Assembly (NCBI RefSeq): GCF_944391105.1
Contig: NZ_CALXSK010000001.1
Span: forward strand, 62,001-126,000
Length of the DNA stretch: 64,000 bases
Direction of reading: 5' to 3'
DNA from: an uncultured Victivallis sp.
GTDB taxonomy: Bacteria > Verrucomicrobiota > Lentisphaeria > Victivallales > Victivallaceae
A program made the translations under genes and the position numbers. Positions 37,650-45,362 of the stretch are shown here, piece by piece; position 1 is the first letter of the stretch; every line of letters begins with the position of its first letter. Below the pieces are notes generated by a model. That model searched no databases. It was not told the DNA's origin and saw only the letters and a list, made by a program, of their open reading frames with translations.

Positions 37650-38327
37650 TCACCAGGTTCCGTCCTCCCATTTCAGTTTGCTGTTGAAGGTGTTGCCGTT
37701 GTAGGAGACGTTCAGAACCGGTTCCGTACTGCCGGTTTTCGGGTGCCAGAGGCAGCGAATCACCGGAAAATAGCTCAGGAAGGAAGAGTATCTCTGATCC
37801 TTGTACGGTCCCTCTTCCTTGCAGACGTCGTGCTTGACGTTCCGGCTCTTGTACTCATTCCAGGTCATGCTCCCGGTCTCTCCGACCTGGGTTGCAAACG
37901 TGCAGGGAGATTCGGAAAATTCATAGAAATAGCTGATCTTCTCGACATCATCATTGGTCGGATTGTTGTAGGAACCGTTTTTGCCGGGAACATCGTACGC
38001 TTCGCTGTACTCGGAATCGATCAGACCGCGCTGGTTCCAATAGGCCGGGTCCGTGTCGGGATCGTTGCCGTCCTTCGGGCAGTGGTAGGTATCCAGAGAG
38101 CTCATGTAGTTCGGATAAAGCGTGGAGATCCACGGCGGCATCCGGTCGCGGTAGTCGTTGCGATACATATCGCACGCAAGGCTCAGTTGTTTCAACTGGT
38201 TCAGACAGGTCGTGGTTTTCGCCCGCTCCCGCGCCTGGTTCAGCGCCGGCAGCAGCATCCCCGCCAGGATTGCGATGATCGCAATCACGACGAGCAGCTC
38301 GATGAGGGTAAAGGATTGCTTTTTCAT
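37650..38327 (-). CDS. Pseudopilin with [18 protein letters not shown] leader
   Basis: Protein of 225 residues; leader [18 protein letters not shown] with Ser at -1 and Glu at +5, then [25 protein letters not shown], the standard start of the large pseudopilin families of Lentisphaerota and Planctomycetota. The rest is a soluble domain with several Cys ([20 protein letters not shown]) and ends W. Its ATG overlaps the stop of the GT2 gene (ATGA), so it is translationally coupled to it. Start RBS GAGGAAACC. Role probably surface or export related. Confidence 0.88.
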
Positions 38328-39898
38328 GCGGTTTCCTCCTTACATGAGTCGGTGTATTCGGTTAATCCATGCCTGGTCTTCTCCCAGTAAAACGGCTTTG
38401 TGAAAATCTGAACGAATCCCTTCCACGCCGCCAGCGAAATCAGCAGCCAGTAAAACGGCATCAGCAGCGCGGCCGGGATCAGCCGATAGTATTTCCGTTT
38501 GATGCACGCGGCAACCCCGATACCGATGAATATAAAATTCGCAAAGAACATGATCAAGGATCCCAGGAAAAAAATCTGGGAAAAAATCGACCAGAACGGA
38601 TCCTCCCCCGTCCCGTAGTAGACCAGCGGCCATGCACGCAATACAATCCCGCCGATCCGCACCCCGTCATAACCGCCCGTCTGCTGCGGTCCGACGATCA
38701 GGTCGAACACCGACACACCCGAACAAACCCCGTGCAGCAGCAGAGTGCCGTACAACAGCAGAACCACCCAGAAAATCAGGTTCGTCAGCATCATCATCGC
38801 ACTGCCGCCGACCGCGAGAAACCCGCCGAACGCCCCGTACAACCCGAGCCGTCTCACCGTCCGGAACGGATTGCGGTAATGAACCAGATGGGTCTGCACA
38901 AACCCCTTCACCCAGCGGGAACGCTGACGCATCCAGTTTCCAAGCTGGGAATTCGCCTCCTCATATGTGGTGGAGTTGACAAGTTTCGTTTTGTAACCGT
39001 ACTCGTAAATCCGCAGTCCAAGGTCGCAGTCCTCCGTCACATTAAACGGATCCCAGCCGCCGATCCCGCGCAAAATCTCCGTGCGGAAGTGGTTGCTCGT
39101 CCCCCCGAGCGGCAGCGGCAGGCGAAACAGCTGATATCCCGGCAGCGTCAGATCAAAGTAGGTCGAGTACTCGACCGTGAAAAGCCGTGTAAGCAAATTG
39201 TAACGGCTGTTGAAGTAATTGAGTTTGCCCTGGACGCAGAGCACCTTTTTTTCCGGATCGCGACGGAAAACGACATACGCCTTCCGGAGCTGATCCGGCT
39301 CCGGCGCGTCCTCGGCGTCGTAGATCACGCAGAATTCGCCGCGCGCCTGCGCAAGCCCGAAGTTGCATGCGCGCGGCTTGGTCTTCGGCGGCAGATCGGG
39401 GATCGTCAGCACGCGGCAGTACGGCGGCAGATCGGTGTTCTCCAGTGCGAGACGGGTTTCATCGTCATCGGCTTCCAGAAGCAGCATGACTTCGAGCTTC
39501 TCCTTCGGGTAGTCGAGTTTACCGATGTTGTGCACGATTTTCGCAGCGATATTCGCCTCGTGGTAGAGCGGCAGGAACACCGTGTAGACCGGCAGTTCCT
39601 CCTCCGTCACGGCTGCAGCCTCCTCGTCCGTGACGATCTCCTCTCCGCGCCCGAACCACGAAAGAACCGCCGCACCGCCCCGGAAAATCACCGCGGCCGC
39701 ATACCAGAACATCAGAAACGCCGTCACGAAAAACAAAAAGTAGTCCCAGCGGAACTTCAGCAGCAGGAGCAATCCCACCGCGATCAGGAAATAACGGAGC
39801 TGCTGCCAGCGGCTCGACACCTCAATGGCCGAGCCTCCCGGGTGCGTTTCGACAAACGCCCGGGTGACAGGATCAAGTTGTTCCGGAAAATACTTCAT
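38324..39898 (-). CDS. Processive family 2 glycosyltransferase (membrane)
   Basis: Inner-membrane glycosyltransferase of 524 residues, of the BcsA/HasA-like type that makes and exports beta-linked polysaccharide. N-terminal membrane helices are followed by a GT2 domain carrying [28 protein letters not shown] and the processivity motif QRSRW. Several C-terminal helices follow. No PilZ domain is present. It opens the two-gene unit with the pseudopilin and is divergent from the secretin operon. The ATG at 39898 lacks an SD and lies about 13 bp after a possible -10, so a GTG at 39961 remains possible. Confidence 0.87.
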
Positions 39899-40198
39899 GA
39901 CAATGATTGAAGATATCACGTTTTCAGGGAAAGTAAAGTTCTTTTTATGATTTTTTTTCACATTTTTTTTCGGAAGCCTTGATTTTCAACATTCGCTTAA
40001 CAACTATGCTAATACAAGGTACAGGAACGAAAAAAGACAAAAATATCTGAAAAATAACTTGCAATTATGCAATGTTGGTATAATTTTTTTAACGAACGTG
40101 GAAAAAGGCATGACAGAAGCATTCCGGATTCCGCCCGTCATTCATGATATTCCGTTTTTTTTGCAAATAAAACAGCGAAGGGAAGGTTCCAGAGTAAA
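39899..40198. other. AT-rich divergent control region (GT2 / secretin)
   Basis: 300 bp between the GT2 and secretin genes with no gene. It contains long T-runs near 39940-39970, a consensus TATAAT at 40079-40084, and TTGCA-ATTA-TGCAA (perfect inverted repeat) at 40059-40072 just before it. A secretin transcript starting here would have a leader of about 107 nt. Confidence 0.45.
40059..40084 (+). promoter_or_regulatory. Candidate operator/promoter of the secretin operon
   Basis: TTGCA-N4-TGCAA inverted repeat followed by TATAAT. TTGCAA to TATAAT is only 14 bp, shorter than normal, so an activator or a different -35 would be needed. Confidence 0.35.
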
Positions 40199-41734
40199 AT
40201 GCGTTTCGGACAAACTCGATTGTGGAAGACAGCCGCCGTTTGCGGCTCGGTGATGGCTCTGACCGCGCTCTCCGCCCAGGCGGCGGCAGCGGAGGAGGAG
40301 AATGAACCCATCATCCGGACAGAAGAAGACTATGCGCGCGGAAAGCAGAATGTCCGCTCCGTCATCGAAGAACTTACCGAACTCTTCAACAACGACGAGT
40401 CCGTATCAGTCGTCCAGCACACCAATCAGCAGATCCAGCCTCCGTACAGCAAAATCATCGAAGGAGCAAACGGCCGTTCCACCCTGATTTTCCGGCCGCG
40501 ATTCACCTCGGCCAAGCCGATGTACAGAGCGATCGACGGCATCATGACCGGTTCCGCCTACGTCGAACCGCTCGAAGAGCAGAACGAACTCATCATCAAC
40601 GCTCCGACCGATGAGATCAAAAGCTATCAGGCGACTCTTGAGGCGATGGACCTCCCTTCTCCGCAAATCCTGATCGAAGCCAAGGTTGTGGAAGTCATGT
40701 TCAGCGACGGCATGCAGCGCAACCTTTCGCTCATGTTTCAGGGGAACCGCTACCAGGCCGGCGCCCAGACCCAGGTCCCGGGAAACACCACCTCCACGAC
40801 CTCGGGTGCCACCGGCAACTTCACGCCTTATGCGGGAAAGGACTCGATGAACATCGCATTCCAGTGGCTCGAAACCGCCGAGGACGCGACCGTGCTCTCC
40901 AGTCCGAACATCCTCATCTCCCGCAACGAGGCCAGCCGGATCGTCACCGGTGAGGAGATCCCGATCCAGGAGGCGACCAACACCGGAACAAGCATTCAGA
41001 TGAGCACGAGCTTCAAGGAGGTCGGCGTGACGCTCGAAGTCGAGCCGAGCATGATCAACCGCGACAACGTGACCCTCCGCGTCTACCCGAAGGTCTCGAA
41101 CGTCCAGCGCTACGAGAACATCTCCAGCGGCGGCGCGAACTACTCCGTGCCGGTCATCTCCGCGCGCAGCGTCGAAAGCTACATCCGCATGCAGGACAAG
41201 CAGGTCGTGATGATGGGCGGCCTTTACAGCAACCGCACCACGCTCCAGCAGGAGCGCGTGCCGTTCCTCTCGGATCTGCCGTATATCGGCGAACTCTTCA
41301 CCGGCAAGAACGAGTCCAAGGAGGTCACGCAGCTGATCTTCTTCCTGAAGATTCACATCATTCAGCCCGATCAACAGGTCGCCAACGGGATCTACTACAA
41401 TTTCGACACGAACGCCAAAGTCAGTGAAAAACTCGGCGAAGTCGTCACCAATGCAGACAGTTTCCCGACACGGGAACGCTCGCTCAAGCGATTCCGCGAT
41501 GAAGTCGTCGGGGCCCTGCCCGGCGCGGAGGAGAAGAAACGCAAGGAGTTCAAGAGCAGCCCCATCTCCCTGGACGCCGCGACGGAGTCCACCACGGCCA
41601 GCGGGTCGGAAGTCGACAAACAATCCTCGAACGAACCGGGGCTGATCGATGATAAACCGTCCGTCAAGGTCTACGTGGAAAAGAAGGACGCGGCTCCCGA
41701 GCCGGCCGCGGAAGCCGTAACCGAAGAGGAATGA
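40199..41734 (+). CDS. Secretin-family outer-membrane channel
   Basis: Exported protein of 511 residues with signal peptide MRFGQTRLWKTAAVCGSVMA… cleaved near AQAAAAEEE. There is a short N-terminal region with one N-domain-like segment (TLIFRPRFTSAKPMYRAIDG to about 150), then a GspD/PilQ-like secretin core from about 155 to 390. The signature VPFLSDLPYIGELF and the gate-region pattern VLSSPNILISRNEASRIVTGEEIPI are clear. A charged tail of 120 residues follows. N0/N1/N2 repeats of type II secretins are absent. First gene of an operon coupled to a MacA-like adaptor, which is unusual for a secretin. Confidence 0.88.
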   Translation: MRFGQTRLWKTAAVCGSVMALTALSAQAAAAEEENEPIIRTEEDYARGKQNVRSVIEELTELFNNDESVSVVQHTNQQIQPPYSKIIEGANGRSTLIFRPRFTSAKPMYRAIDGIMTGSAYVEPLEEQNELIINAPTDEIKSYQATLEAMDLPSPQILIEAKVVEVMFSDGMQRNLSLMFQGNRYQAGAQTQVPGNTTSTTSGATGNFTPYAGKDSMNIAFQWLETAEDATVLSSPNILISRNEASRIVTGEEIPIQEATNTGTSIQMSTSFKEVGVTLEVEPSMINRDNVTLRVYPKVSNVQRYENISSGGANYSVPVISARSVESYIRMQDKQVVMMGGLYSNRTTLQQERVPFLSDLPYIGELFTGKNESKEVTQLIFFLKIHIIQPDQQVANGIYYNFDTNAKVSEKLGEVVTNADSFPTRERSLKRFRDEVVGALPGAEEKKRKEFKSSPISLDAATESTTASGSEVDKQSSNEPGLIDDKPSVKVYVEKKDAAPEPAAEAVTEEE

Positions 41735-41736
41735 AC

Positions 41737-43260
41737 ATGAAGCTCAGCCGGAAAAAACTCACATGTCTGATCGTCCTGCTGGTGCTCTGCGGGATCGGGT
41801 CCGGAGTGTGGTTCGGCGTCATCCGTCCGAAACTTCAGGCGAAAAGAGCCGAGGCAGCCAAAAAAGCCCAGGACGCCGAGGATATGGACCGGACCTACAA
41901 AGTCCGCCGCGACGACCTCGTCATCGGTCTGCTCCAGGGCGGATATGTGAACGCCAGTCAGAAGCACAAACTCTCTCTTCAGGCCAACTACCGCACCAAA
42001 CTGCTCTGGGTCATCGATGAGAACACCAAGGTCAAGGCAGGCGATCTGCTGGCCCGGTTCGAGACCGACGAACTCAAGGAGCAGATCGAAAACCTCGAAA
42101 TCGAGCTCGACAACCTCAAGAAGGAGCTCGATCTGGCGATCGAATCGAAGAAGATCCAGATCAGTACGAACGCGGCCGATCTCCAGGCCGCCGAAGAGAA
42201 CCTGCTCCAGGCCGATGACGCCATGCGGAAATACCGCCGCTTCGAGCGCTCCAGCACGCGCGACAGCCTCGACCTCGCAATCTCCAACGCGGAAGCGGCA
42301 CTCGAAACCGCCAAGAACGATTATGCCACCACGCGCGACAGCGAAGTCGAGGTCTCCAAGGATGAAAATGCCGAGGACAAGAAACGGCAGCTGCTCAAAG
42401 AGGCGCAGGCCGTGATCGACGAGAAGGAGAACGCCCTTACCACGGCGGAGGACAATCTGCGGGTGTTCCGCCGCTACGACAATCCGAGCAAGCTGACCCG
42501 CCTCTTCAACGCCTACGAACAGGCGAAACTGAATTTGCGCAAGGTCAAGATCTCCACCGAGTCGAAAATCGTTCAGGCCGACAAATCGATCGAGAACTAC
42601 CGGCGGCGCGTCCGGCGCACGACCGAACAGCTGAACCGCTACAAGAACTACATGACCATGATGGAGCTGCGCGCCCCGGTCGACGGGGTCGTGATCTATG
42701 CGGATCCCGACCGCCGCTGGGGCAACCTCGACGTGAAGCCCGGCATCGACATCAACAAGGGGCAGGTGCTCATCACAATTCCGGAAATGTCGAATCTCGT
42801 GGTCGACTTCGATCTGCCGGAACAGTACCGCTCGAAGATCAACATCGGCGACCGCGCGGTCATCTCGCCGGATTCACTGCCCGGGGAGAAGTTCGGCGGA
42901 ACGATTTCGCACATCGATACGCTGCCGGTCAACCTTGTGAACTGGGACGCCTCGTCTCCGAAGATCTACAAGTCGAAGATCAAACTCGATCACCAGTCGC
43001 CCAAACTCGTGAACGGAATGAGCGTTCAGATCAACATTGTGACCAAGACGATTCCGAACACGATCTTCGTGCCGGTCGAGGCGGTGTTCGAAGACAACGA
43101 CCGGTTCTTCGTCTACCGCAGCAGTCTGACCGGGCCGAAAGAGGTGGATGTGACGATCGGAGAATCGAACGACAACTTCGTGGAAATCCCGAGCGGACTC
43201 GAAGAGGGAGACGTCGTTTATCTCTACCGGCCGTACCAGAAAACGCAGGACTCAAAATAA
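41737..43260 (+). CDS. MacA/HlyD-type periplasmic adaptor
   Basis: Membrane fusion protein of 507 residues, anchored by an N-terminal helix (LTCLIVLLVLCGIGSGVWFGV). It has the split biotinyl-like half (LLWVIDENTKVKAGDLLARFETDEL), a long coiled-coil hairpin (about residues 110-300) and the second half ELRAPVDGVVIYADP. A beta-barrel and a membrane-proximal domain ending in VFVPVEAVFEDNDRFFV follow. The secretin gene ends four bases into an ATG at 41731, but AGAGGA is better placed for ATG 41737. The coiled coil is the part that contacts the outer-membrane channel in MacA. Confidence 0.85.
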   Translation: MKLSRKKLTCLIVLLVLCGIGSGVWFGVIRPKLQAKRAEAAKKAQDAEDMDRTYKVRRDDLVIGLLQGGYVNASQKHKLSLQANYRTKLLWVIDENTKVKAGDLLARFETDELKEQIENLEIELDNLKKELDLAIESKKIQISTNAADLQAAEENLLQADDAMRKYRRFERSSTRDSLDLAISNAEAALETAKNDYATTRDSEVEVSKDENAEDKKRQLLKEAQAVIDEKENALTTAEDNLRVFRRYDNPSKLTRLFNAYEQAKLNLRKVKISTESKIVQADKSIENYRRRVRRTTEQLNRYKNYMTMMELRAPVDGVVIYADPDRRWGNLDVKPGIDINKGQVLITIPEMSNLVVDFDLPEQYRSKINIGDRAVISPDSLPGEKFGGTISHIDTLPVNLVNWDASSPKIYKSKIKLDHQSPKLVNGMSVQINIVTKTIPNTIFVPVEAVFEDNDRFFVYRSSLTGPKEVDVTIGESNDNFVEIPSGLEEGDVVYLYRPYQKTQDSK

Positions 43261-44036
43261 TGGCGACGAACACGGCGGCGGACCGCAACGACATCGTCCG
43301 CCTCATTGACATTCGCAAGACATACATCACCGGCGAACTTCAGGTTCCCGTGCTCAAGGGGATCGATGCGACAGTCAAGCGCGGAGAGTTTGTCGGCTTC
43401 ATCGGGACCTCCGGTTCCGGAAAGTCGACGCTCCTGAACATTCTCGGTATGCTCGATGTCCCGACCAGCGGCAAATACTTTCTGGAAGAAACCGAAGTCA
43501 GCCAGCTCTCCGATGTCGACCAGGCGACGATCCGGAACCGGAAAATCGGCTTCATCTTCCAGAGTTTCAACCTCTTCCCGCACCTTTCGGTCGAGGAGAA
43601 CATCGAGGTTCCGATGGTCTACGGCCGGATTCCGGGGCGGATTCGCCGCAAGCGGGCGCTGGAACTCGCCAAGCGGGTCGGGCTCGGTCACCGTCTCGGA
43701 CACCGGCCGACACAGCTCTCGGGCGGAGAGTGCCAGCGTATCGCAATCGCGCGGGCGCTCTCGAACAACCCCGCCTTCATCCTCGCGGACGAACCGACCG
43801 GCAACCTTGACGAAAAAACCAGCAATGAAATCATGAACCTTTTCCATGAGCTGAACCGCGGCCAGGGTGTGACGATCGTCATGGTGACCCACAATCCGGC
43901 GCTCGGGCCGCATTACGACACGATCATCCGGCTGCGCGACGGACGGATCGACGACCGCCTCTTCGAGTGGGAGATCCGGGAACAGGAACGGCAGGCGGCG
44001 GAGAAGGCTGCGAAAGGTGCGGAGGTGGCGAAATGA
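43260..44036 (+). CDS. ABC transporter ATP-binding protein (MacB/LolD type)
   Basis: Protein of 258 residues. Walker A is GTSGSGKSTLL, the signature motif LSGGECQRIAIARAL and Walker B FILADEPTGNLDE, with H-loop MVTHNP. This sequence class powers MacB/LolCDE/FtsE-type permeases. The ATG overlaps the adaptor's stop by one base (TAATG) and the next gene overlaps its stop, so translation is coupled. In E. coli MacB the ATPase and permease are one chain; here they are separate. The C-terminal tail is charged and Lys/Ala-rich. Confidence 0.95.
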   Translation: MATNTAADRNDIVRLIDIRKTYITGELQVPVLKGIDATVKRGEFVGFIGTSGSGKSTLLNILGMLDVPTSGKYFLEETEVSQLSDVDQATIRNRKIGFIFQSFNLFPHLSVEENIEVPMVYGRIPGRIRRKRALELAKRVGLGHRLGHRPTQLSGGECQRIAIARALSNNPAFILADEPTGNLDEKTSNEIMNLFHELNRGQGVTIVMVTHNPALGPHYDTIIRLRDGRIDDRLFEWEIREQERQAAEKAAKGAEVAK

Positions 44037-45304
44037 TGCTCGTCCGCGACCTCTTCAAACTTTCGCTTCACAATCTGCTGCTGCACAAGGTGCGGTCGAT
44101 TCTGACCTCGCTCGGCGTGATCTTCGGCGTCGGCAGCGTGATTGCGATGCTTGCGATCTCCGAGGGCGCCAAACGTTCGGCGCTGGCCCAGATCGAGGCG
44201 ATGGGCGTCGACAAGATCATCCTCTTCTCGAAACGTCCCCCGATCGACGGACGCAGCGAAAGCTCAGACAACGCCAGCGTCATGGAGCGCTATGGACTCA
44301 ACTACCGTGATGTGAACAACATCCTCAAAATGGACAACGTCGAACGCATCACCGGAGTTTTCGACACGCGGAAAAAAGTGCTCAAGGGGCTCGACCGAAC
44401 CGACCTCAAGCTGGTCGGATGCGACTATGAGTTTCTGGGCGATTCGCTTGCGCGGGTGGAAAAGGGACGCTGGTTTACCCCGGCCGACTTCAAAAACGAC
44501 GCCTACGTCTGCGTGATCGGCAAAAATGTGAAGCGAAAGCTCTTTTCGATCGGCAACACGGACATCGTCGGCAGCACGATCCGGATCGAAGACATGGTGT
44601 TCCGGATCATCGGCATCATCAACAACGAATACGGTACGCAGTACCCGGAAATCGGCGGCCAGAACGACATGATCCTGATCCCGATGACGACCGCCCGCGC
44701 GCTCTGCAAGGACTACACGTTCTACCGCGAGGGGCGGAACTACAAGATCACCCGCATCGAATATGACCTCTTCCTCATCAAGGTGAACGATACGAGCTAC
44801 ATCGACAACACCTCCAAACGCGTCGCCGGGTATCTCGAAAAAACCCACTCCGAAACAAAGGACTGGGGGATGGTCGTTCCACTGGAACTGCTCAAGCAGA
44901 TGGAGCAGACCCAGAACATCTTCACAATCGTGATGGGGTCGATCGCCGGAATTTCGCTCGTGGTCGGCGGGATCGGCATCATGAACATCATGCTTGCGAG
45001 TGTCTACGAACGGCGCAAGGAGATCGGTACGCGCCGCGCACTCGGAGCACAGAAATCCGACATCCTGCTGCAATTTCTGATCGAAACGGTCTTTCTGACC
45101 TCGATCGGCGGCGTCCTCGGCATTCTGCTCGGGGTCGGAATCGGGTCGACGATCACCTATTACACGCAGATGCCGACGATTTATTCGGCGTGGAGCATCA
45201 TCCTCGCCCTGGCGATTTCGAGCATCACGGGCGTGATCTTCGGCACCTATCCGGCCTACAAGGCCGCCCAGCAGAACCCGATCACGGTGCTGCGCGCGGA
45301 ATAA
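44033..45304 (+). CDS. MacB-like ABC permease
   Basis: Protein of 423 residues with one N-terminal transmembrane helix, a MacB periplasmic core domain (about 45-295) and three C-terminal helices of the FtsX type. HNLLLHKVRSILTSLGVIFGVGSVIAMLAI at the start and YERRKEIGTRRALGAQKSDILLQFLIE before the last helices are classical. Start at ATG 44033, preceded by GGAGG. Last gene of the operon and followed by a strong terminator. Together with the ATPase it equals a split MacB that works on periplasmic or membrane substrates. Confidence 0.92.
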   Translation: MMLVRDLFKLSLHNLLLHKVRSILTSLGVIFGVGSVIAMLAISEGAKRSALAQIEAMGVDKIILFSKRPPIDGRSESSDNASVMERYGLNYRDVNNILKMDNVERITGVFDTRKKVLKGLDRTDLKLVGCDYEFLGDSLARVEKGRWFTPADFKNDAYVCVIGKNVKRKLFSIGNTDIVGSTIRIEDMVFRIIGIINNEYGTQYPEIGGQNDMILIPMTTARALCKDYTFYREGRNYKITRIEYDLFLIKVNDTSYIDNTSKRVAGYLEKTHSETKDWGMVVPLELLKQMEQTQNIFTIVMGSIAGISLVVGGIGIMNIMLASVYERRKEIGTRRALGAQKSDILLQFLIETVFLTSIGGVLGILLGVGIGSTITYYTQMPTIYSAWSIILALAISSITGVIFGTYPAYKAAQQNPITVLRAE

Positions 45305-45326
45305 GGTCGGACGCCGGAAAAACGAC

Positions 45327-45362
45327 GGGCGGGGAGCATCTCTCCCCGCCCGGTTTTGTTTT
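45327..45362 (+). terminator. Intrinsic terminator of the secretin-MacAB-like operon
   Basis: GGGCGGGGAG-CATCT-CTCCCCGCCC (45327-45351), then GGTTTTGTTTT. Confidence 0.85.

Follow-up and report, generated by a model that had tools for sequence, protein, structure and literature searches.

Adaptors that dock on TolC carry a conserved tip at the end of their hairpin with an RLS motif, and this motif is absent from some adaptors proven to bind TolC (PMC4446572). MacA- and MacB-like proteins also occur in the Aat lipoprotein secretion system AatPABCD, where the MacB-like part is divided over separate chains (AatPC) (PMC7943197). A search of the open-access literature returned no published description of a secretin combined with MacAB-type proteins, and a 2018 review of MacB does not mention secretins. 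The locus described here, from an uncultured Victivallis sp., places a secretin gene in series with genes for a MacA-like adaptor, a MacB/LolD-type ATPase and a MacB-type permease. In the following, the window denotes the whole 64-kb stretch of DNA that was analysed.

Operon structure and genomic surroundings

Open reading frames and their translations placed the four genes one after another on the forward strand at 40199-45304. The leading gene (40199..41734) encodes a secretin of 511 amino acids, assigned by Pfam (Secretin, E=5e-41), an AlphaFold model and Foldseek matches to GspD, PilQ and pIV. It is followed by the gene for an inner-membrane-anchored, MacA-like periplasmic adaptor (41731..43260; alternative ATG start at 41737), identified by HlyD_D23/RND_mfp matches, AlphaFold and Foldseek. 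The ATPase gene (43260..44036; ABC_tran, E=1e-33) has MacB and LolD as its best NCBIfam matches, and a motif check found the Walker A, signature, Walker B and H-loop elements all intact. The permease gene (44033..45304) matches the periplasmic domain MacB_PCD (E=7e-32) and FtsX (E=2e-24). Overlaps of 4 bases (ATGA), 1 base and 4 bases join secretin to adaptor, adaptor to ATPase and ATPase to permease, respectively; the last two genes are thus separate, and there is no fused MacB chain. On the 3' side of the permease gene, a strong inverted repeat with a T tail (45326..45352, forward strand) resembles an intrinsic terminator, with a hairpin of 11 pairs, 10 of them G-C, followed by GTTTTGTTTT. 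The frames, order, coordinates, overlaps and strong terminator given in the preliminary description were therefore borne out by the reading of the open reading frames and by this repeat. Its single control region presumably corresponds to an A+T-rich intergenic region at 39962..40198 (forward strand), seen on direct reading of the sequence; a search of the forward strand directly upstream of the operon gave no convincing match to a sigma-70 promoter.

Upstream of the operon and divergent from it, the reverse strand (37650-39961) carries genes for a DUF1559-type pseudopilin and a family 2 glycosyltransferase. Neighbourhood comparison found these two genes adjoining the operon in only a few close relatives. 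More generally, the flanking genes vary freely among relatives, so that the conserved unit comprises the four genes and no more. A functional tie of the operon to the pseudopilin and glycosyltransferase genes was accordingly rejected, both being divergently transcribed and not kept as neighbours, and the earlier idea of a glycoconjugate or pseudopilin-linked substrate is not supported. The assembly ATPase family PF00437 had no match within the 64-kb window; the GspE-type ATPases of the genome sit outside it, two of them adjoining other secretins.

Distribution of the secretin-type operons and their TolC-type sisters

Among the first 40 relatives compared, nearly all intact loci showed the adaptor, ATPase and permease genes, in this order, after a secretin orthologue. 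An adaptor profile, run against 84,980 species genomes, yielded 76 loci, 67 of which were close (L087-L153). The secretin gene lay directly upstream in 63 of the close loci; three others were cut by a contig end (L094, L121 and L145) and one (L140) was unlinked. Their hosts were Lentisphaerota, together with Kiritimatiellae and other MAGs, and included the cultured V. vadensis DSM 14823, whose locus lies on NZ_QEKH01000031.1, and strain zth2. Across 110 Victivallales genomes, the secretin was present in 72, the adaptor in 72 and both in 71; the two genes were adjacent on one strand in 68 of these 71 genomes and on separate contigs in three. Two genomes had the secretin or the adaptor alone, in each case as a fragment or at or near a contig end. 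The gap between secretin and adaptor did not exceed 30 bases in 70/74 loci, and other families of the phylum contributed 10 more loci with the secretin-first order. In genus g15 of the same family, most sampled genomes were devoid of both secretin and adaptor and a few (G189, G265) kept both, which suggests joint losses.

At L140 and L154, genes other than the secretin, read as RNase D-like and MatE-like, precede a secretin-type adaptor; in the adaptor tree, the L154 adaptor groups within the secretin clade. A genome search recovered the orthologous secretin elsewhere in both genomes (524 and 306 bits), beside unrelated genes, and this retention without linkage argues for a joint function. Chance offers no reasonable account of the association between the secretin and the MacAB-like genes. 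The preliminary description had treated the four genes as one unit and had named absence of the order in relatives as the outcome that speaks against it; instead, the order was found throughout the lineage, and together with the co-retention it upholds the unit.

A phylum-wide adaptor search returned weaker relatives in many families. Sampled loci whose adaptor scored more than 300 bits, and in addition L198 (254 bits), had a secretin upstream; the other 42 sampled loci had none. These 42 sister operons contain the same adaptor-ATPase-permease genes with a TolC-type gene (PF02321) in the place of the secretin: the upstream gene was OEP/TolC in 10/10 cases tested by Pfam and in 37/42 by profile, and a secretin in 0/42. 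A profile search of the secretin-type loci found no TolC-type gene beside the operons. The secretin is thus the only outer-membrane channel of the operon, as had been claimed, and it occupies the seat held by TolC in the sisters. Since four genomes (G081, G178, G130 and G224) contain one operon of each type, the two exist in parallel and are more than alternative forms of a single gene set. In quick trees of the adaptor (tip columns included) and of the permease, one branch with a support of 100 divides the secretin-type from the TolC-type members. On these sequences, the simplest reading is a single channel exchange, probably from TolC to secretin; the direction is less sure, as it rests on a long-branch outgroup.

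The cell that carries the operon is not devoid of TolC. The only clear TolC of this genome is an orphan TolC-type lipoprotein on contig C15 (L077:9138-10811, reverse strand), which matches OEP at E=5e-59 and whose gene adjoins one that resembles peptide deformylase. A further MacA-ATPase-permease operon, canonical and devoid of an outer-membrane gene, lies on contig C30 (L078:7453-10872, reverse strand); its MacA has a textbook RLS tip, RAQTLQTKDAMS. The C15 protein and the C30 operon would be natural partners. The term TolC-free, used in the preliminary description, consequently holds for the operon but not for the cell. TolC-type proteins occurred in 108 of the 110 Victivallales genomes, including genomes without the secretin operon, and such near-universal presence means that absence provides no argument against a TolC partner. 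Whole-genome absence of TolC was dropped as a line of proof, since the only two genomes without it were 81% and 72% complete.

The adaptor tip and the secretin

The family matches, the AlphaFold model and Foldseek together identify the adaptor as MacA-type, with an HlyD fold composed of alpha-hairpin, lipoyl and barrel parts. Its AlphaFold model (pLDDT 86) displays one very long hairpin formed by helices 111-201 and 212-307, in agreement with the long coiled coil noted before, and the best Foldseek match of the model is MacA of MacAB-TolC. Hairpin length was considered as a secretin-specific trait and rejected, because the TolC-type sisters share it (median 204 residues, compared with 212 in the secretin-type adaptors) and the difference is confined to the tip. 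Part of a mid-hairpin Lys-Tyr/Tyr girdle is likewise common to both types. The tips of the TolC-type sisters have an invariant Leu followed mostly by Gly/Lys, Phe/Tyr and Ser/Thr/Asn. A corresponding pattern, L...[GQK][FYV].[STN], was fixed on the first 22 TolC-type adaptors and then applied, at the aligned tip, to 20 fetched later; it was present in 20/22 of the initial and 17/20 of the later sequences (37/42 overall). Only 1/73 secretin-type adaptors matched (L198), off the tip and by chance, and the tips of this type are longer, polar and unconserved. A naive expression, R...L......[ST], run over whole adaptors was uninformative, as it also matched outside the hairpin. With hairpin length and part of the girdle in common and the tip different, the change is specific to the docking end, as expected upon a change of partner. 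The secretin-type adaptors have thus lost the TolC-docking tip; given that RLS is not universal among TolC binders, this is strong but not conclusive evidence of a changed partner.

In the AlphaFold model, the secretin is composed of a signal peptide (about 1-29), a helix (42-63), a KH-like N-domain (83-150), the secretin domain (about 156-388) and a variable tail. The domain (PF00263) includes an invariant GGL and related motifs, and one weak Secretin_N match accompanies it in Pfam. The single N-domain noted earlier is confirmed by the model; a domain search of the window secretin and seven further members detected neither an N0/STN domain nor a second Secretin_N. GspD, PilQ and phage pIV are the nearest solved structures in Foldseek, and sequence matches agree. 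The helix at 42-63, ahead of the N-domain, is moderately conserved and is a candidate docking element. The 120-residue charged tail emphasised in the preliminary description does exist, but the part after residue 394 ranges from 36 to 146 residues across members, is not conserved and is disordered or of low confidence in the model, so that it is no defining part of the secretin. A functional role of the tail was rejected on the same grounds.

Further secretin-like genes were observed in the same genome. Tandem pairs of secretin-like proteins (about 473-545 and 541-574 aa) are encoded on contigs C12 (L082:6745-9809), C2 (L083:6240-9360) and C20 (L081:428-3776), with no adjoining pilus or adaptor genes recognised; the C12 pair matches Pfam Secretin, its second member best. 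Contig C3 carries a Tad-pilus-like cluster (L085:5392-11323; CpaB-, CpaC secretin-, CpaF- and TadB/C-like by reading) with a secretin of its own.

A candidate exporter, its alternatives and related systems

Taken together, the four genes of Victivallis and its relatives probably encode a tripartite exporter of the MacAB type in which TolC has been swapped for a secretin. ATPase and permease would together make up a split MacB. If this works as MacB does, the periplasmic domains of the permease would move upon ATP binding and would drive a periplasmic or membrane-extracted substrate into a tube of adaptor hairpins. The rebuilt tip of these hairpins might dock on the short periplasmic part of the secretin, that is its single N-domain and helix 42-63, and the substrate would exit through the secretin. 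We infer the docking of adaptor on secretin, the MacB-like mechanotransmission, the direction of export out of the periplasm and a larger cargo. The bore of secretins is much wider than that of TolC, so that a larger or folded cargo is possible, though unproven. Known structures contain six MacA subunits as against 12-15 secretin subunits, a possible mismatch that counts against the exporter reading. A broader proposal is made tentatively and with more doubt than belief: the operon could define a distinct class of one-machine exporter, in which a rebuilt adaptor joins a MacB-type motor directly to a wide secretin. Substrates that TolC could not accommodate, such as folded proteins, large peptides or glycans, would then pass out of the periplasm with no need for a pseudopilus.

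Alternatively, the MacAB-like trio could export through the orphan TolC, with the secretin as a separate channel that is merely co-transcribed. E. coli MacAB likewise uses an unlinked TolC, and both the orphan gene and the frequency of TolC in Victivallales are in keeping with such an arrangement. It is nevertheless improbable, because the adaptor is without the docking tip kept by the sisters and by the canonical MacA of the same genome, because the secretin stands exactly at the TolC position of the sisters, and because the second MacAB, with its RLS tip, is at hand as a partner for the orphan TolC. The complex might also be no exporter at all. As a MacB-type mechanotransducer, like FtsEX, LolCDE or YbbAP, it could act on the secretin itself, in its assembly, insertion or gating, or could deliver lipids or lipoproteins to the secretin. 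These three belong to the same ABC subfamily, NCBIfam gives the ATPase equal scores for MacB and LolD, and no substrate gene linked to the operon was found. The permease, however, scores 188 bits to MacB and 35 bits to LolCE, the sisters possess a TolC-type exit duct, and a LolC/E-like permease exists separately, together with a LolD-like ATPase, all of which make this account unlikely.

The secretin could finally serve a type II secretion system, a type IV pilus or a pseudopilin machine, to which the MacAB-like genes would be accessory. Its closest relatives are indeed GspD and PilQ, and a pseudopilin gene lies nearby. Yet N0 went undetected, the window is without a GspE-type ATPase, two of those elsewhere stand beside other secretins, and the pseudopilin and glycosyltransferase genes are divergent, unconserved neighbours; we therefore regard this as very unlikely. 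If the secretin-coupled exporter is real, TolC is not an obligatory part of tripartite pumps, whose channel is exchangeable for an unrelated, larger one. The same adaptor family paired with TolC or with a secretin, both in four genomes, provides natural matched pairs that make the long debate on adaptor-tip recognition testable by tip swaps. A further question is which cargo such a wide-bore MacAB would transport in Verrucomicrobiota of the gut and of the environment.

Among the related systems, Aat likewise unites a split MacB-like part with an outer-membrane channel; its channel AatA, however, is a TolC homologue, and it has the acyltransferase-like AatD, neither of which is encoded in this operon (PMC7943197). 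With GspD, PilQ and pIV the secretin shares the secretin domain with its GGL motifs and one KH-like N-domain, whereas N0 and further N-domains were undetected and the operon is without the ATPase, platform and pseudopilin genes of pilus or type II secretion systems. The likeness to MacAB-TolC lies in an adaptor fold nearest to MacA, a permease with MacB_PCD and FtsX, a MacB-type ATPase and sister operons that encode an outer-membrane channel. Unlike MacAB-TolC, the present operon has a secretin for TolC, an adaptor tip without RLS, ATPase and permease on separate genes, and a hairpin almost twice as long as in the canonical MacA encoded on contig C30 (about 212 residues versus about 114 when measured between the same anchors, the second value being read by eye).
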